Positions 8,164-51,675 of a DNA stretch of 64,000 bases are shown in pieces. The notes beneath the pieces are model-generated. The model saw only the letters and a list, made by a program, of their open reading frames with translations, was not told where the DNA came from and did no database searches. The stretch covers positions 2,235,684 to 2,299,683 of the forward strand of contig OY282457.1 of the NCBI GenBank assembly GCA_958296235.1, in the 5' to 3' direction. Origin of the DNA: an uncultured Candidatus Binatia bacterium (GTDB lineage: Bacteria > Desulfobacterota > Binatia > Bin18). The position numbers were made by a program, and so were the translations under genes. Position 1 is the first letter of the stretch; each line of letters begins with the position of its first letter.

Positions 8164-8374
8164 ATCCGACTTCCATCCAGAAGAAATATCTCCCCAGCGG
8201 GGAAAGGCTTTCCCATTTCTTTTACAGCCAGAGTCAGGTGGTTCGTCAAGACCAATCAACCCCTTTCGACTAGGCAGTTGGGTTGGAATATGGTTGCATA
8301 CGCAAGCGCGCTTCCCCGTCCTTCTCAGGTAGCCGAAGCGATTGAGGGAAAAGCTGCGCGCCAAGGAGAACCGT

Positions 8375-9463
8375 ATGGCCGTTGAGATTCCTGTCCTCAC
8401 CCAACAATTACAAGCATTCTGTCTGAGCCATTATGGACAAGCCGCGACTGTACACCAGGTCGAGGCCATGCCGGGCCATGCCGGGCTGAGTTTTGGCTTC
8501 ACCGTGGCGTATGAAAAAGACGGACAACCCGAGCGCGACTCTCTGGTTATGCGTCTGCCGCCCAAAGGCGTTCGCCAAAGTGGGAATACCGATGTCCTGC
8601 GCCAAGCGCCTTTATTGCGCGCGCTCAAGAAGAACGGGGTGCCTGTCCCGGAAGTGCGGTGGGCAGGTGACGACCTGCGCTGGTTCGAGGTGCCCTACCT
8701 GATGGTCGAACGCCTGCCCGGTCGGACCTTCCACGTCTGGGAACCCGACGCGTCGTTTGATCGGGCCGCCGAGGCTGTCGCCCTGCTCTACCGGCAAGGG
8801 GTGCAGGCTTTGGTCCAGGTCCACCAACTCGATTGGAAAACCGAGCTGGCCGGCTGGGAAGCGCCTCGCTCGCTCGAACAGGAAATCCGCTTCTGGGACC
8901 CCATTTTAGCCAAAGCCGCGGAGCCAGAATGGGTTGCCTGGGGCGAAGAGGTGCGCGCCCTCCTGCTGACCCACCAGCCCGCAGACCCGCCGATCGGCCT
9001 TTTTCATGGTGACTATCAGGGAACCAACCTGCTGTTTGACAAAAAGAGGAAACCTGTCCCGCCTCTGCCGGTCGAAGAAAGGCAGGTTTCCTCTTTACAG
9101 CCCGCGGGCGAGCAGCTGGTGGCTCTCCTGGATTGGGAGATTTCCGGTATCAGCGGGCATCTCCTCGACCTCGGCTGGCTGCTGGTCTTTATCGACCCGG
9201 AAAGCTGGGACGCTGAACGCCGTCCAATCGCAACGACCCCACCGATTGACGAACTCGTGGCTTTGTACGAAGAGGGCATGCAACGGAGGGTCCCCGATAT
9301 CAATTGGTATCGCGCCTTGGCCGGTTATCGCTTTGGAGCGATCAGCTGCTTTAACGTGGTGCTGCACCGTCGCGGCAAGCGCCACGACCCCGAATGGGAC
9401 CTGATCGCTCCGTCGGTCAAGACGCTTTTTGGCCGGGCCAAGGAGTTGCTGATCAGAGGTTGA
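8375..9463 (+). CDS. APH-fold phosphotransferase family protein carrying a palindromic insert
   Basis: A 363-residue aminoglycoside-phosphotransferase-fold (kinase-like) protein of the type often found beside acyl-CoA enzymes. The catalytic loop FHGDYQGTN (about residue 210) and metal-binding [11 protein letters not shown] are intact. The ATG at 8375 is preceded by AAGGAG with ideal spacing, so it is preferred over the upstream TTG at 8342. Between the catalytic loop and DWE the protein carries about 19 extra residues encoded by a 54-bp perfect-arm palindrome (9043-9096); the paralogue at 12181-13230 lacks it. The substrate is unknown; some relatives are acyl-CoA-dehydrogenase-associated or small-molecule kinases. 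Confidence 0.88.
9043..9096. repeat. protein-coding palindromic element, copy A
   Basis: A 54-bp element inside the APH-fold gene. The arms AAAGAGGAAACCTG (9043-9056) and CAGGTTTCCTCTTT (9083-9096) are a perfect 14-bp inverted repeat. The interior (CCCGCCTCTGCC-GTCGAAGAA type) resembles that of the copy at 21406-21457. It is read in frame and adds residues [18 protein letters not shown]. Confidence 0.85.
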
Positions 9464-9830: not shown

Positions 9831-9879
9831 GTCTTGACCCGCACCGGGCAGGGGCGTAGGTGTGTTGCAAGAGGTCGCC

Positions 9880-10668
9880 ATGACCATCATCAACACCATA
9901 GAAGACCTGATCCAAGTCCTGGACGAACATCCGCACTGGCTCGAAGCCCTGCGCGCCCGGCTGCTGACCCGCGAGTTGATTGAACTGCCCGAAAAGTTTG
10001 CCGCGTTTGTCGAAACCACCAACCAACGCTTTGACAAAGTAGAGCACCGCCTGGGCACGCTCGAAACCGATGTCAAGGAACTCAAAACCGATGTCAAGGA
10101 ACTCAAAACCGACGTCAAGGAACTCAAAACCGATGTCACAGGACTCAAAACTGATGTCACAGGACTCAAAACCGACGTCAAGGAACTCAAAACCGATGTC
10201 ACAGGACTCAAAACCGACGTTAAGAGCCTGCGAGACGATATGGGTATTCTCAAAGGCGCCCATGCCCGCAACGTGGCTGTGGAAGACGCGACCAGCATTG
10301 CCCGCGGCCTGGGGCTGCGCCGCACCCGCACCCTGAGCCGAGACGAACTGTGGGACCTGACCGAGACCGCGGACACTACCGACATTCCGCCCAATGCCCT
10401 GCGCAGCTTTCGGCAGGCCGACCTGATTATGGCCGCCACCGACCAGGCCGGCGAGCCATGTTATATTGCCGTGGAAATCTCCTTCACGGCCAATGGCCGC
10501 GACACCACCCGGGCCATGCGGAACGCGGAGTTCCTGACGCGGTTTACCGGCAAGCCGGCCTATGCCGTCATCGCCGGCCTGCGCCAGGATAACCGGACAC
10601 AGCCCCATATCGAAGCCGGAGAAGTGTGCTGGCATCAACTTGACCCGTCCGACCTCGAAGCGGACTAG
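9880..10668 (+). CDS. heptad-repeat coiled-coil protein with possible PD-(D/E)XK-like C-terminal domain
   Basis: A 262-residue protein. I prefer the ATG at 9880 (AAGAGG upstream) to the GTG at 9862. Residues 1-60 are helical (IEDLIQVLDEHPHWLEALRA). Residues about 61-116 are eight near-identical heptads of the LKTDVKE/LKTDVTG type, a long parallel coiled coil. The C-terminal 130 residues contain FRQADLIM followed by YIAVEISF, a D...E-x-S pattern on adjacent strands resembling PD-(D/E)XK nuclease-like folds, with Ser where Lys is usual. No known gene name fits. It stands alone in an accessory patch; a DNA-related function is inference only. Confidence 0.75.
   Translation: MTIINTIEDLIQVLDEHPHWLEALRARLLTRELIELPEKFAAFVETTNQRFDKVEHRLGTLETDVKELKTDVKELKTDVKELKTDVTGLKTDVTGLKTDVKELKTDVTGLKTDVKSLRDDMGILKGAHARNVAVEDATSIARGLGLRRTRTLSRDELWDLTETADTTDIPPNALRSFRQADLIMAATDQAGEPCYIAVEISFTANGRDTTRAMRNAEFLTRFTGKPAYAVIAGLRQDNRTQPHIEAGEVCWHQLDPSDLEAD
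10060..10227 (+). repeat. eight tandem 21-bp heptad-coding repeats
   Basis: Eight consecutive 21-bp units, each starting at CTC and encoding LKTDVKE or LKTDVTG (first unit LETDVKE). Units differ by only a few bases, so the array is prone to copy-number change by slippage, which would alter coiled-coil length in whole heptads. Confidence 0.9.
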
Positions 10669-11174
10669 GGCGTTTCACGCTAAGCTCTGACCGGGCCATC
10701 GCGTTCTCGTCATGCCGGACGTGATCCGGCATCCATACTTCGACTCTTCCCCTTGATGTGGCTCAGGACAGACTCGGCACAAACGGCCTCGCGTTCGCCC
10801 TGAGCGGAGCGGAGTTGAAGGGCCTGTCCGGGCGGCTGAGAGTCTGGACGCCTGCCCTGTATTTACAGGGGTGACGTTCTTTCGCAGGCATGACGAGTGG
10901 CTACACAGCATGGTCAACGGCCTCATGCAGCGCACGACCCTTACCGTGGCGACACGGTTTCGTGCAGAATAGTGATGGCCGCAGCTTCACTACGTCCAAC
11001 GCTGAAACAGGCGATTTTGGACATGTGTATAGCCCTCCTGCACGACGGATAATAGGCATGTGGAAAAGAGGAGTAAACCGGCCAGAACTTAAGCGGGGCG
11101 AGAAGCTGGGGTATGAACCGTGCGAGTTAAACTCACTTCTCTTCCTGCCTGCATGAGGCTATATAGTTATCGGA
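10669..11174. other. 506-bp gene-free stretch with short hairpin repeats
   Basis: I see no supportable gene here. It begins with the 15-mer CTAGGGCGTTTCACG, also found after the gene ending at 50715. It contains the hairpin ATGCCGGA/TCCGGCAT (10712-10732), shared with 26883-26903. It also contains a CCCTGAGCGGAGCGGAGTTGAAGGGC segment type related to the large hairpin at 49099-49184. The rest (10890-11150) shows no convincing coding signal. Confidence 0.6.
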
Positions 11175-20851: not shown

Positions 20852-22024
20852 GTGACTCCGCAAGAAAAACTGCAAAAAATCCGCGCTGAGCTCCAACAGA
20901 GTTTTCTCGAACGGCAGGCCCTCATCGATGGCGCGCTGGCAGCCTTGTTAGCCTCCCAGCACGTCCTTATTATCGGCCCTCCGGGGACGGCCAAGTCGAT
21001 GCTGGCGGATGAGATGTGTCGCCGTATTACCGGGGCGCGCTATTTCCAGTGGTTGTTGACGAAATTCACGACGCCAGAAGAACTCTTTGGAGCGGTCAGC
21101 CTCAAGGCGCTCGAAGCCGACGATTATCGCCGGGTCACGGATCACAAACTGCCCGAGGCACACATTGCCTTTTTGGACGAAGTCTTCAAGTCCAGTTCAT
21201 CGATATTGAACGCGATCCTCAGCATTATCAACGAGCGGGTCTTTCACAATGGCAAAGAGGCGGCGGCAGTGCCGCTCCTGACGCTCTTCGGGGCCAGCAA
21301 TGAACTCCCCGAGGACGAGGAACTCGTTGCGCTGTACGACCGTTTCCTGCTGCGCTTCAGCGTGGATTACATCCAGGAGGACTTTCGCTTCCTGCACATG
21401 CTTCAAAGAGGAAACGTGTCCCGCATCCGCCCGTCGAAGAAGGACACGTTTCCTCTTCAGGCGCACAGACCCGCGGAACGCACGACGCTGACCCTCGACG
21501 AGCTGCGCCAGTTGCAGGCCGAGGCGCACGCTGTCACCGTCCCGGATGCCGTTCTTGGGGTCATCGCCGAGGTGCGCCGAGAGCTGCGCGCGCAAGACAT
21601 TCTCGCGTCCGACCGTCGCTACCGCCAGAGTGTCGGTCTGCTGCAAGCCGTGGCCTGCCTGGATGGACGCCGTAGCGTCACCGAGACCGATGTCTTCTTT
21701 CTCGAACACGTTTTATGGAAGGAGCCGTCGGAGCAGGCCGCGGTGCATAGCGTGATTCATGGCTTGATTCATGGCTATGAGGATGAGGTGCAGGAACTCC
21801 TGTTTCAGACCAGGGAGTTGCGCGATTATGCCGAGCGGCCCTGGGAGGACGCCGAGCAGCGCGCCCGCGCGATCATTGAGGCCCATACCAAAATTCGGAA
21901 TATCCTGACCAAGGTGGAGGAAATCCACCAACACGTCCAGGAGGCCGGGCGCGCCATCGATAAGGTTGAACAGGCGAAACGAGAGATTCAAGAGATCCAA
22001 GGCCAGTTATTGGAACGGCTCTAA
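20852..22024 (+). CDS. MoxR-family AAA+ ATPase (RavA-like)
   Basis: A 390-residue MoxR ATPase with a GTG start preceded by GAAGG. Walker A GPPGTAKSMLADEM (about residue 43), Walker B IAFLDEVFKSSSSILN (about 108), sensor 1 TLFGASNELPEDEEL and the arginine-finger region LYDRFLLRF are all intact. The C-terminal 60 residues form a coiled tail. It is followed 12 bp later by a VWA protein, the classical MoxR-VWA chaperone-like pair that inserts metals or remodels complexes. Around residues 185-202 the protein carries residues encoded by a 52-bp palindromic element (21406-21457). Confidence 0.92.
   Translation: MTPQEKLQKIRAELQQSFLERQALIDGALAALLASQHVLIIGPPGTAKSMLADEMCRRITGARYFQWLLTKFTTPEELFGAVSLKALEADDYRRVTDHKLPEAHIAFLDEVFKSSSSILNAILSIINERVFHNGKEAAAVPLLTLFGASNELPEDEELVALYDRFLLRFSVDYIQEDFRFLHMLQRGNVSRIRPSKKDTFPLQAHRPAERTTLTLDELRQLQAEAHAVTVPDAVLGVIAEVRRELRAQDILASDRRYRQSVGLLQAVACLDGRRSVTETDVFFLEHVLWKEPSEQAAVHSVIHGLIHGYEDEVQELLFQTRELRDYAERPWEDAEQRARAIIEAHTKIRNILTKVEEIHQHVQEAGRAIDKVEQAKREIQEIQGQLLERL
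21406..21457. repeat. protein-coding palindromic element, copy B
   Basis: A 52-bp element in the MoxR gene. The arms AAGAGGAAACGTGTCC (21406-21421) and GGACACGTTTCCTCTT (21442-21457) are a perfect 16-bp inverted repeat. Its interior (CGCATCCGCCCGTCGAAGAA) aligns with copy A. It is read as RGNVSRIRPSKKDTFPL, a different reading frame from copy A. Confidence 0.85.
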
Positions 22025-22036
22025 GACCCCCGAAAG

Positions 22037-23638
22037 ATGACCATGCCACGCCGGCGCGCCAGGAAAAAATCCGCATTCAGCCTCCCACCACCAGAGCCGC
22101 TGCCGGATAATGTCCATTGGGTTGAGAGCGACTCGTATGACCGGGCGGTCTATGAGCAGCTCCGCGCCACCTCCCCCTCTTTACAGCGCCTTGAAGAGAG
22201 TGGGGCGTCTCTTCTGCCGCATTTTCCTGCGCTCCTGCGCGACCTGTTTTGCGCGCTCTTTAAGTATAATGTCGTCTTTTTCAAAACCGACGCCGTGCTC
22301 CCCAGCGCAGCGGTGAACAAGGAGTTGCTTACCGCGCTGCATACCGGCGAGTTGGCGAACCTGCTGCGCGAAGCCACCGTCCTGGATGAAGGGCAGGCTG
22401 GGCTGGCCACCGCGCTCTTGGGCGAAGGTGCCCTGCGCGTGCTGAAATCTGAAAAGCCACTGACCCGGCGCGACTTACTCGATATCTGGAATGTAGAGAA
22501 ACAAGAAGCGCTGGTACAGCAGAACATCGACGAAGCCCGCAATGCCAGAGAACTCGCTGAACAAGCGGATACTGCCGAGGATATCTCACAAGAAGCCACA
22601 CAGATGCTCGAACAGACGGCCGAGCGTATGGCCAGCCAGGCGCGGGCCGAAGACACCCGGCTGCGCCGCCTGGCCAAACAGCTCGACCAGGACCTGGCCC
22701 GCGGACGCCAGGAGACCCATAATCGTTTTCTCAAAGAAGCCATTACGGTTGCCCAGAATCTCGATGACGCGACCCAGGAGGCCGAGTCGTGGGGGCTGGC
22801 CGTTGGTGGGGGCCATCAATCTTCACCCGGCCGCCAGATTGAGCTGGGAAAGCGTCTGGCTGGGAACGACAAGCTGAAAAAGCTGGCCAGGATGGTCGGG
22901 CGGATGAAGCGCCAGGCGCTCGCCTTGCGGCGGAAAAACTTTGAACGCACAACTGACGAGGTCTTCGAGGTGGGCATTGGAGCCGAACTCAGCCGCTTGC
23001 TCCCCCACGAACTGGTGAGCTTGCAGCATCCCCTGTTACGCCAGGACTTTATCCGGCGCTTTGTGGATAATGAACTCTTGCAATACGACTTGCGCGGGGT
23101 GGAGGCGCAGGGCAAAGGCCCACTGATCGTCTGCCTCGACGGCAGCTCGTCCATGCTGGGTGACAAGGAAATCTGGGCCAAAGCGCTCACGCTGACGCTG
23201 CTTGAAATTGCCCGGCGCGAACGGCGCCGGTTTCGGGCGATCTGTTTCTCGTCCGCGGACGCGCCGCTGTACCGCGTCGATCTCAATACGCGGCTACGCT
23301 ATGAAGCGGACATGGACAAGGTGCTGGAACTGGCCGAATACTTCCCCGGCGGTGGAACCGATTTTGAAAAACCCCTCGATGCGGCCCTGGCGTGCATCCA
23401 GGAGTCTCGTTTTCAGCGGAGTGATATCGTGTTTATTACCGACGGCGAATGCCGCGTCCACGCCGAATGGGCCGAACGCTTTGCCGCGGAAAAGGACGCG
23501 CTCGGCTTCTCGCTCTTCTCAATTCTGATTGACGTTGGCGCCAGTTCACTGGGTTCTCTCACACCTTTCAGCGATAGAATTACGAGCGTTTCCCAACTGA
23601 CCAGCGAGGAGGCCAGGGATGTGTTTGTCAAATTGTAA
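22037..23638 (+). CDS. VWA-domain protein, partner of MoxR ATPase (ViaA-like)
   Basis: A 533-residue protein. The N-terminal 200 residues are helical, and the central part is a charged coiled coil (about residues 150-230, rich in Glu, Arg and Gln). The C-terminal von Willebrand A domain starts PLIVCLDGSSSMLGDKEIW, with a DxSxS metal site at about residue 367, and continues FPGGGTDFEKPL (the conserved Thr) and VFITDGECRV (the conserved Asp). No signal peptide is seen, so it is cytoplasmic like ViaA. It starts 12 bp after the MoxR gene, an obvious operon. The substrate of the pair is unknown. Confidence 0.88.
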   Translation: MTMPRRRARKKSAFSLPPPEPLPDNVHWVESDSYDRAVYEQLRATSPSLQRLEESGASLLPHFPALLRDLFCALFKYNVVFFKTDAVLPSAAVNKELLTALHTGELANLLREATVLDEGQAGLATALLGEGALRVLKSEKPLTRRDLLDIWNVEKQEALVQQNIDEARNARELAEQADTAEDISQEATQMLEQTAERMASQARAEDTRLRRLAKQLDQDLARGRQETHNRFLKEAITVAQNLDDATQEAESWGLAVGGGHQSSPGRQIELGKRLAGNDKLKKLARMVGRMKRQALALRRKNFERTTDEVFEVGIGAELSRLLPHELVSLQHPLLRQDFIRRFVDNELLQYDLRGVEAQGKGPLIVCLDGSSSMLGDKEIWAKALTLTLLEIARRERRRFRAICFSSADAPLYRVDLNTRLRYEADMDKVLELAEYFPGGGTDFEKPLDAALACIQESRFQRSDIVFITDGECRVHAEWAERFAAEKDALGFSLFSILIDVGASSLGSLTPFSDRITSVSQLTSEEARDVFVKL

Positions 23639-23665
23639 CGAGCAGTGCAGAGGGAGCGCGCCGGT

Positions 23666-24940
23666 ATGACGGCCTTAGCCGGCCTCCGCGTTCTCGACCT
23701 GACCGACCTCAAAGGGGCCATGTGCGCCAAACTCTTTGGCGATATGGGGGCGGATGTCATCAAGGTCGAGCCACCCGAGGGGGACGCCATGCGTCGCATT
23801 GGCCCCTTTCTCAATGGCCAACCGCGCCGAGGAGGAAACCTGTCCTCTGCCAGGCACGAGAGGCTGGACCCGTTTCCTCTTTCTGACCGGAGTCTGCTGT
23901 TCTGGTTCTATAATACCAGCAAACGGGGCATCACCCTCGACCTGAACCAGCCCGCCGGCCAGGAGTTGGCCAGGCAGCTGGCGGCAAAGGCAGACGTTCT
24001 GGTCGAGTCAGCCGCGCCAGGGACACTCGCCCGGCTCGGCCTGGGCTATGACGAGCTGAAGCAACTCAACCCAAATCTGGTGCTCACCTCGATTACACCC
24101 TTTGGACAGACCGGACCGTATAAGGACTACCGCTCCTCAGACATGGTGGCCGAGGCCCTGGGGGGCATGATCTGGACCAACGGGTTTCCCGATGAGCCAC
24201 CGCTGCACGCTCTGGGCCTGCAAGCCTACCATAGCGCCTCCTTTTTTGCCGCGATCGGCACGCTGTTGGCCCTGTTGACGCGAGATGCCATAGGCGAGGG
24301 CCAGTGGGTGGACGTGAGCATACAGGAAGCCGTGGCCGGGGCAGTCGAACATATAGCGCCGTTTTATCATCAGGGCCTCGGCATTGAGCGCCGGCGCGGC
24401 AGCCTGCACTGGAGTCGCTATTTTCGCGTGGCTCGGTGTCGCGACGGCTATGTCATGCACTGTTCGTTGGGGGATTGGACCTCGCTGGTCGAATGGGTCA
24501 AAGGAGACAGGAAAGCCCAGGACCTTGAGGAGGCGCGCTGGGAAGACCTGACCTATCGAAAAGAGCGCGCCGAACACCTGTTTGCTATTCTTGATGACTG
24601 GGCCAAAGACTACAGCGTGGCTGAACTCATGGAAGGCGCGCAGCTCCGGCGTATTCCGTATGCCACAGTTCGACCGCCCGAAGCCTTAGTGGATGATCCC
24701 CAGTTAAACGACCGCGGCTTTTTCTCCGATATTGAGCACCCGGAGTCAGGCCGCAGGCTGCGATACCCCGGCGGTCCCATCCACTTTACGACAACGCCGT
24801 GGCGCATTGCCCGCCGTCCGCCCCTCCTGGGCGAGCACAACAGCGAGGTGTACCGCGGCGAGCTGGGCCTGACCGAAGAACGGTTGGCGGAGCTTGCCCG
24901 GGCCGGCGTCATCTCGGCCGCCCCTCAGCAGACCGAGTGA
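23666..24940 (+). CDS. CaiB/BaiF CoA-transferase family protein with palindromic insert
   Basis: A 424-residue class III CoA-transferase-fold protein. I take the ATG at 23666 (AGGGAG 9 nt upstream) over the GTG at 23645. It has LRVLDLTDLKGAMCAKLFGD, MGADVIKVEPPEGD and the signature TSITPFGQTGPYKDY. Where active members have a nucleophilic Asp, this protein aligns as Tyr (LQAYHSASFFAAIG), so catalysis by the usual route is doubtful; a large subfamily shares this feature. Between GPFLNGQP and LLFWFYNT it has 18 more residues than the homologue at 51676, encoded by a palindromic element. It is separated by 27 bp from the VWA gene. Confidence 0.87.
   Translation: MTALAGLRVLDLTDLKGAMCAKLFGDMGADVIKVEPPEGDAMRRIGPFLNGQPRRGGNLSSARHERLDPFPLSDRSLLFWFYNTSKRGITLDLNQPAGQELARQLAAKADVLVESAAPGTLARLGLGYDELKQLNPNLVLTSITPFGQTGPYKDYRSSDMVAEALGGMIWTNGFPDEPPLHALGLQAYHSASFFAAIGTLLALLTRDAIGEGQWVDVSIQEAVAGAVEHIAPFYHQGLGIERRRGSLHWSRYFRVARCRDGYVMHCSLGDWTSLVEWVKGDRKAQDLEEARWEDLTYRKERAEHLFAILDDWAKDYSVAELMEGAQLRRIPYATVRPPEALVDDPQLNDRGFFSDIEHPESGRRLRYPGGPIHFTTTPWRIARRPPLLGEHNSEVYRGELGLTEERLAELARAGVISAAPQQTE
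23832..23879. repeat. protein-coding palindromic element, copy C (diverged)
   Basis: A 48-bp element in the CoA-transferase gene. GAGGAAACCTGTCC (from 23832) pairs with GGACCCGTTTCCTC (to 23879) with two mismatched positions. It is read in the same frame as copy B, giving GGNLSSARHERLDPFPL. Arms and ends match copies A and B, while the interior has diverged. Confidence 0.8.
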
Positions 24941-24982: not shown

Positions 24983-25146
24983 CTCTCCCCCCTGGAACGT
25001 GTGCTGTCCATTGTGTCGCCGGCCCCCCGGGCGGTCCGTCCGCCCCCTCACCCGGCCCTTCGACAGGCTCAGGGCCACCCTCTCCCTCCAGGGGAGAGGG
25101 GAAGACAAGGGAAAGACAAGAAACCCGCTCCCGCTGGGAGAGAGGG
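24983..25146. repeat. hairpin-rich intergenic repeat, copy 1
   Basis: The spacer between the CoA-transferase and cpaA contains the block ATTGTGTCGCCGGCCCC, then CGGTCCGTCCGCCCC, then CCCTTCGACAGGCTCAGGGC, then CCCTCTCCCTCCAGGGGAGAGGG (a perfect 9-bp stem), ending with CCGCTCCCGCTGGGAGAG. The same block recurs at 26580, 30452 and 39647, always in this orientation. Confidence 0.8.
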
Positions 25147-26579: not shown

Positions 26580-26904
26580 TGCCCCCTCACCCCAGCCCTC
26601 TCCCTCCAGACGTGTGATGCGCATTGTGTCGTCGGCCCCCAGGCGGTCCGTCCGCCCCCTCACCCGGCCCTTCGACAGGCTCAGGGCCACCCTCTCCCTC
26701 CAGGGGAGAGGGAAAAACAAGAGCCCCTCTCCCGCTGGGAGAGGGGTTGGGGTGAGGGTCGAACCGGCTGGGGGCCGCCGAGCCATGTAATCTGCATCAC
26801 ACGTTCCAGGGGAGAGGGAGTAAAGACAGCCCGTCATTCCTGCGAAAGCAGGAATCCAGGTCCCCAGCCCCCCGGCCGCTGGATGCCGGATCAAGTCCGG
26901 CATG
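26580..26904. repeat. hairpin-rich intergenic repeat, copy 2, plus two classical hairpins
   Basis: The 357-bp spacer between convergent cpaB and tadC is filled by repeats and has no gene. First comes the same block as copy 1, with CCCCTCTCCCGCTGGGAGAGGGG as an extra perfect stem and a tail GTAATCTGCATCACACG. Then come ATTCCTGCGAAAGCAGGAAT (26836-26855) and ATGCCGGATCAAGTCCGGCAT (26883-26903). Confidence 0.85.
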
Positions 26905-26907
26905 ACT

Positions 26908-30368: not shown

Positions 30369-30680
30369 TCGGCCCCCTCTCCCTCCAGGGGAGAGGGCTG
30401 GGGTGAGGGGGCATTTCAAACTGAGACACTACCATAGATTCTCTCTCTTTGGACGTGTGATGCACATTGTGTCGCCGGCCCCCGGGCGGTCCGTCCGCCC
30501 CCTCACCCGGCCCTTCGACAGGCTCAGGGCCACCCTCTCCCTCCAGGGGAGAGGGAAAGACAAGAGCCCCTCTCCCGCTGGGAGAGGGGATGGGGTGAGG
30601 GCGAAACAGCGGTGAGGGCGAAACAGCGGTGAGGGCGAAACAGCGCCCTGGGCCGCTGAACAACTTGATTTGCATCACAC
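30369..30680. repeat. hairpin-rich intergenic repeat, copy 3
   Basis: The 352-bp spacer between cpaE and tadA has no gene. It holds a short partial copy (CCCTCTCCCTCCAGGGGAGAGGG, 30376-30398) and a full copy from about 30452, ending with GCTGAACAACTTGATTTGCATCACACC. It also contains three 17-bp direct repeats at 30594-30644. Confidence 0.85.
30594..30644. repeat. three tandem 17-bp repeats
   Basis: GGTGAGGGCGAAACAGC occurs three times without interruption (30594-30610, 30611-30627, 30628-30644) at the distal edge of repeat copy 3. The other copies show only one unit or none, so it looks like a local slippage expansion. Confidence 0.9.
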
Positions 30681-39576: not shown

Positions 39577-39957
39577 AGGGAATGGGGAAAGGGAGGGGCG
39601 GAAAGCGGGCAGCGGGCGTCTCAAAGCCGTGGGCCGGTGTCCTGCCCATTGTGTCGCAAGCCCCCTCACCCGGCCCTTCGACAGGCTCAGGGCCACCCTC
39701 TCCCTCCAGGGGAGAGGGAAAGACGAGAGGCCCGCTCCCGTTGGGAGCGGGGTTGGGGCGCTGAACAACTTGAGCTGCATCTCTCCCGCCAAGGGGGAAG
39801 AGTCAATGTGAGTGTGGTCATTCACCCTGAACATGCTGTTTCTCATTTCTGTAATGAGAAGGGAGAAGGTGCTAGAAATCATCATAGTGCATACATTCAG
39901 TATGTGTGTCAATGCTTTTGTGCAATTCAAAAGGGTAAAAAAAAGTCAGGACAGGAA
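39577..39957. repeat. hairpin-rich intergenic repeat, copy 4, and AT-rich spacer
   Basis: No gene is supported in these 381 bp. Copy 4 of the Tad-locus repeat runs from about 39647 (CATTGTGTCGCAAGCCCC) to 39795, ending GCTGAACAACTTGAGCTGCATC. The rest (39800-39957) is AT-rich, with a run of short A/T tracts (GTAAAAAAAAGTCAGG), and is a likely promoter region for the minus-strand tadD group, although I cannot pick boxes with confidence. Confidence 0.7.
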
Positions 39958-51501: not shown

Positions 51502-51675
51502 GTCCGCACCACAAAGAGTAGCCGTGTCCTCCAATCGATATTCGCTGTTGACACGTTTACTCTTCGAGTACTGCGTGCCAGGGCTGGAGTCAAGCTTGAC
51601 GTGACACCAGCGGCCTACTAGAGTCTGACTCTGCTGTGTCGGAGCTACCCGACCGGCTGGAAAGAAGGAGGGAGT

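Follow-up and report, generated by a model that had tools for sequence, protein, structure and literature searches.

Within the 64-kb window analysed here (the whole stretch of 64,000 nucleotides), the gene for a MoxR-family ATPase contains a palindrome that recurs, read in a different frame, in a phosphotransferase gene. This raises the question of what is being conserved, a protein motif or the DNA itself, and how such a sequence comes to lie inside the reading frames of unrelated genes. The palindrome in the MoxR gene (copy B) and its host are laid out as follows.

20852-22024, plus strand: MoxR-family AAA ATPase, host of copy B (bpMoxR, PF20030, residues 6-190; AAA_lid_8, PF17868, residues 234-302)
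21405-21458: copy B, the full 54-bp element in the MoxR ORF (covariance-model match of 62.4 bits, E 2e-13; empty site in four congeners)
21406-21421, plus strand: left arm AAGAGGAAACGTGTCC, perfect over 16 bp
21422-21441: 20-nt interior CGCATCCGCCCGTCGAAGAA, the part that occurs inverted at other loci
21442-21457, minus strand: right arm, the perfect reverse complement of the left arm

The perfect 16-bp inverted repeat reported for copy B in the first-pass annotation is borne out (21406-21421 and 21442-21457, around the 20-nt interior), and it is the only one with a 4-40 nt spacer in the 64-kb window, while mononucleotide shuffles (n = 20) yielded none. RNA folding of copy B gives -28.1 kcal/mol (z -7.1). 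The complete element has the consensus AAAGAG(T/G)AAACGTGTCC-N20-GGACACGTTT(A/C)CTCTTT, and copy B is translated within its ORF as RGNVSRIRPSKKDTFPL, from which tryptic peptides such as KDTFPLQAHRPAER are predicted. The insert corresponds to about residues 184-202 of MoxR, in a linker that joins the AAA core to the lid and is modelled with low confidence: AlphaFold2 gives residues 176-206 of the window MoxR a pLDDT <50. This predicted placement is in line with toleration in a linker, although the low pLDDT may also stem from a shallow alignment, parts of the core being low too.

The window holds four copies in total, the other three of which lie in or near the following features.

8342-9463, plus strand: APH phosphotransferase family gene (PF01636), host of copy A
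9043-9096: copy A, in the APH-type phosphotransferase ORF in a frame unlike that of copy B; interior inverted in the G001 orthologue
22037-23638, plus strand: VWA-domain gene downstream of MoxR, without the element in the window
23645-24940, plus strand: CoA-transferase family III gene (PF02515), host of copy C
23829-23882: copy C, in the CoA-transferase family III ORF and read in the frame of copy B; site unoccupied in G001 and G003
51513-51565: copy D, 53 bp, intergenic, flanked by opposite-strand genes; interior inverted in G001

Copies A and B had been said to share an interior core, and they do (CCCGC..TC.GCC-GTCGAAGAA; 87% identity across a 53-nt register). One of the congeners, G005, has an additional 54-bp copy in its VWA gene, in the third frame and at a site matching window position 23398/23399; in that genome a stretch of less than 4 kb, which spans the MoxR, VWA and CoA-transferase genes and extends past them, contains four copies (L070 3450-7207). 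The window also contains repeats of other kinds: a dispersed palindrome, CCCTCTCCCTCCAGGGGAGAGGG, in five exact copies (25078-25100, 26690-26712, 30375-30397, 30533-30555 and 39696-39718); a 27-bp repeat, GTCATGCCGGA..TCCGGCATCCA, with 96% complementary inverted copies at 10709-10735 and 26880-26906, which looks like a further REP-like repeat; and eight 21-bp tandem repeats at 10039-10262 (ORF 9862-10668) encoding the 7-residue repeat LKTDVKE, likely a coiled coil.

The element is not confined to the window. In the Candidatus Binatia source genome (G000; 4.62 Mb, single contig) there are about 90-100 copies: an arm-pattern search gave 67 + 64 matches against 7 + 4 for a reversed-pattern control, and a covariance model built from 45 copies found at least 88 distinct loci (144 matches, both strands), which rises to at least 98 with extra arm matches and short derivatives, a few of these extras being broken or doubtful. 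The congener G001 has at least 124 copies, 150 candidates having been scored for each of the two lists. Every genome of the genus (seven) and of its sister genus (two) carries the element, and the seven genomes surveyed from five further genera of the family all lack it. When 84,980 genomes were scanned for the exact pattern, 82 stretches came back, every one from records of Candidatus Binatia/Binatota or 'Desulfurellaceae bacterium bin18'. Rfam has no match at gathering score within the window, and the papers searched contained no account of Binatia palindromes. As far as could be found, this is a previously undescribed family, confined to two sister genera within Candidatus Binatia. Among its shorter relatives are 22-bp mini-palindromes, AAAGAGGAAACGTGTCCTCTTT, at three G000 loci (L007, L008 and L011; C1:2306476-2306497, 2368025-2368046 and 2410946-2410967), apparently internal deletions of the 54-bp element; the site at 2368025 holds a full-length copy in G001. 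G001 also has pairs of elements 24-46 bp apart (C1:1189412-1189545, 1738938-1739091 and 1608896-1609036).

Comparison of filled and empty sites gives the clearest view of how copies arrive. The MoxR gene has 390 codons in G000, G002 and G005 and 372 in G001, G003, G004 and G006, as the insert is present in three of these seven congeners, and the site is empty in the other four and in every more distant homologue checked. The empty genes read CACATGCTTC followed directly by AGGCGC, and in the alignment identical flanks border the 54 bp of the filled genes, so that filled and empty sites differ by exactly 54 bp, with neither target-site duplication nor loss. Further loci behave like MoxR, their flanks joining with a gap of 0 at the empty sites. 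When the G000 elements were compared with 1.6 Mb of G001, 67 of 98 could be assessed; 29 were filled, and of the 38 absent from G001, 16 had clean junctions. On this comparison of species the element is most plausibly mobile DNA of recent insertion, a point that the first-pass annotation had not made. About 90% of insertion sites lie outside genes.

These properties invite comparison with a classical MITE, that is, a derivative of a DDE-transposase insertion sequence (IS) with matching terminal inverted repeats. The element does have terminal inverted repeats (arms of 16-17 bp at both ends of its 54 bp), carries no transposase gene, is non-coding and of high copy number, and occurs at both empty and filled sites. 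Its junctions, however, are exact and without target-site duplication, 4-mer direct repeats in the flanks being observed 0 times against 0.4 expected and thus showing no excess. Neither a partner IS nor widely spaced inverted arms turned up in the genome stretches examined or among the G000 arm matches listed; in those stretches the search for an IS with matching ends met a few broken single arms and no IS-spaced pair. The bases immediately outside the element are not conserved, and there is no insertion 3′ of a fixed short target of the IS200/IS605 type; instead, a weak preference exists in the flanks, 3-6 bp beyond the element (T at +6 in 5/192 flanks, p 3e-13). A MITE origin is for these reasons unlikely.

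The copies are not spread evenly over the chromosome. In G000 the three nearest of ten bins of distance from dnaA hold 35, 22 and 14 of the at least 98 copies (KS p 7e-19), and in G001 the two nearest hold 42 and 27 of at least 124 (p 3e-15). GC skew does not mark the origin, and we take the dnaA region as oriC because dnaA is followed by dnaN, gyrB and gyrA and, in G001, the interval from dnaA to dnaN holds nine DnaA boxes within some 170 bp. Simple conservation (core/accessory geography) is insufficient to explain the clustering, as two distal 20-kb segments, the only two examined, are also about 70-90% conserved in G001. Local hopping fares no better, the similarity of interiors being independent of distance (Mantel rho 0.05, p 0.86), and no clear strand bias indicates replichore-oriented insertion.

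Changes in the arms are paired beyond chance expectation. Both sides have changed in 10 of 17 arm pairs, a value reached in 0 of 500 shuffles, and orthologous copies have 17 double arm changes against 8.6 by chance, roughly twofold, although 7 of the 17 stem from two pairs with poor alignment. Orthologous copies often have single unpaired changes as well, so the arms also decay. Subfamilies or hairpin-templated repair, as opposed to selection for a structure, may account for part of the covariation.

Together, strong oriC clustering in two species (where, again, the two distal segments are also conserved) and paired arm changes are what would be expected of a chromosomal or regulatory site kept by selection, such as an RNA hairpin, a terminator or a DNA-binding site of the origin region. 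Against this stand the fast turnover, with 38 of 67 copies absent from the sister species, the presence of copies within genes in either orientation, and the absence of the element from other genera of the family, which make a selected function decidedly improbable.

At orthologous filled sites the interior has the same orientation in 79 of 93 pairs between species and is inverted in 14, representing about eight independent loci. The inverted interiors sit between conserved flanks, as where AGCATCTGTTATTTATTGGA in one species is matched, at the corresponding position in another, by precisely its reverse complement, and the interior of copy A is inverted inside the ORF of its orthologue, where the 18-codon insert is still open. 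A second, independent insertion at the same site in the opposite orientation is a less probable alternative. For inversion in place, a cruciform or template switch seems likelier than a synaptic recombinase, given the spacer of only 20 bp.

Another candidate for a mover is a RAYT, the Y1 HUH transposase that mobilises REP/REPIN-type elements, which are likewise palindromic, lack target-site duplications and number about 100 copies. In G000 a single ORF of 249 aa matches Y1_Tnp (26 bits), but this ORF (L143) is accompanied by repeats of the GTAGGGGC type, i.e. GTAG REPs. Three other Y1 candidates have related GTAGGGGC repeats nearby and one more has a repeat of a different kind, and none of nine weak or moderate Y1 matches in the genus has a full arm of the 54-bp element nearby. 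Moreover, the element has no conserved GTAG/CGTC-like tetranucleotide tag, and two of the seven congeners (G005 and G006), with many copies, have no Y1 match at E 0.1 in their incomplete assemblies. With the Y1 matches sitting beside other repeats, we rejected RAYT/Y1 mobilisation as an explanation and give a REP/REPIN identity very little chance. The RAYT-like ORF is of separate interest (G000:C1:1477947-1478126; L143 1042-1788), as it is flanked and internally invaded by the GTAGGGGC-type REPs, which read within it as repeated GAGPRACP peptides, making them a second, unrelated repeat family translated in a gene.

To return to the copies inside genes, reading frames were surveyed at 164 distinct insertion sites sampled from seven genomes, using a three-periodic codon model (training set, 320 kb of G000) that finds the right frame in 112 of 120 training-gene windows. 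Sixteen of the 164 are clean in-gene copies, with hosts that include MoxR, APH, VWA and CoA-transferase genes; since the calls rest on the codon model and demand an open frame, divisibility of the length by 3 carries no independent weight here. The first base of the element falls at codon position 3 in 11 copies, position 2 in four and position 1 in one, and interiors occur in either orientation. In each case the 54 bp remain open as 18 codons and the host gene remains a single ORF, in any of the three frames. In-gene copies carry the double change T:A to G:C at position 7 of the arms more frequently (8/16, as opposed to 14/139; Fisher p 3e-4).

The translations that the first-pass annotation gave for copies A and B are confirmed in ORFs 8342-9463 and 20852-22024, and their frames do differ, the first base of the element being the third of its codon in copy A and the second in copy B. 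The annotation had argued from these two copies that the unit of conservation is the DNA (or an RNA hairpin) and not a protein domain, a view that a single shared frame with amino-acid-level conservation would have contradicted; neither is found across the 16 in-gene copies, tabulated by frame and orientation, which use all three frames and both orientations. Nucleotide identity is practically the same for same-frame (0.695) and different-frame pairs (0.685), whereas amino-acid identity collapses from 0.40 to 0.04. The frame table thus supports DNA rather than a protein motif as the conserved unit. Two further readings have little in their favour. A translational bypass or intron-like element, removed at the RNA or protein level, would suit exact insertion and a strong hairpin, but every clean copy within a gene is 54 bp long and keeps the gene's frame open, and no clear frameshifted or stop-containing copy lies within a conserved gene among those surveyed, so this is highly improbable. 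A protein motif common to the hosts, to which copies B and C with their shared frame (RGNVSxxR....DTFPL) might point, is scarcely credible and is ruled out as a general explanation by the frame table, as the peptides are unrelated between frames, most copies lie outside genes and the interior inverts.

We therefore favour, with considerable confidence, a non-autonomous mobile 54-bp DNA palindrome that inserts exactly and independently of frame, and that would be mobilised in trans or by a replication-linked process. Copies enter new sites as exactly AAAGAG...CTCTTT, without target-site duplication or loss, and in such a model a candidate enzyme acting in trans, or the replication-linked process, would work on the hairpin or cruciform form. 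The searches for a Y1 transposase in the genus and for an IS in the stretches examined yielded no mobilising enzyme. Resolution of a cruciform or template switching between the arms would later invert the interior in place. In-gene copies may owe their survival to a length (54) divisible by 3, to the lack of stops in most frames and to the tolerant loops or linkers in which they are kept, and the inserted peptide probably has no conserved function. A bolder version, which we offer tentatively and think rather doubtful, is that a hairpin of 54 nt is placed precisely by an uncharacterised system, in either orientation, with no duplication of the target and with a preference for the origin-proximal chromosome, and that the hairpin keeps flipping in place. 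If true, one mobile palindrome would both add and later rewrite short peptides in unrelated proteins. Frame-independent insertion and in-place inversion in ORFs illustrate a way in which non-coding DNA can repeatedly furnish proteins with new peptide segments. Clean empty sites in sister species allow age, junctions and fate to be read directly, and the oriC clustering and the junctions free of duplication suggest a mobilisation route that phyletic patterns could reveal.

Several known systems share some of these features. Cyanobacterial small mobile repeats (SDR5) are very small and mobile and have no coding function, and the present element is, by description, like them in these respects. 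Prokaryotic MITEs (PMC10969869) are similarly small and non-autonomous, with terminal inverted repeats and both empty and filled sites, but differ in their target-site duplications, which the junctions here lack, and in having a parent IS, which did not turn up in the genome stretches examined. REP/REPIN elements (PMC3116915, PMC3733652) are also short palindromes without target-site duplication at about 100 copies per genome; in contrast to those that accompany a RAYT, the 54-bp element has neither GTAG/CGTC tag nor associated RAYT and inserts inside genes. In chloroplast DNA, hairpin-loop 'flip-flop' small inversions reverse the sequence between arms among related species (PMC6824564). Those hairpins are not mobile, whereas the one that inverts here belongs to a mobile repeat dispersed over a bacterial chromosome.

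Rickettsia palindromic elements (RPEs) are about 150 bp long. A review (PMC10969869, on the work of Ogata et al.) describes them as encoding a conserved peptide, with nearly half of them inserted in ORFs. RPEs and their Wolbachia equivalents are, like our element, palindromic, dispersed, found in frame within ORFs of unrelated genes and translated as an insert. By description, the Binatia element is set apart through its 54 bp, its roughly 10% of copies in genes, its use of three frames, its lack of a conserved peptide and its different phylum. We know of no enzyme identified as mobilising RPEs. In its mode of action the element resembles the Rickettsia palindromic elements while being shorter, mostly intergenic, devoid of a conserved peptide and able to invert: a young, much smaller and independent family in an uncultured phylum. 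Translated mobile palindromes have hitherto been mainly a Rickettsiales curiosity.
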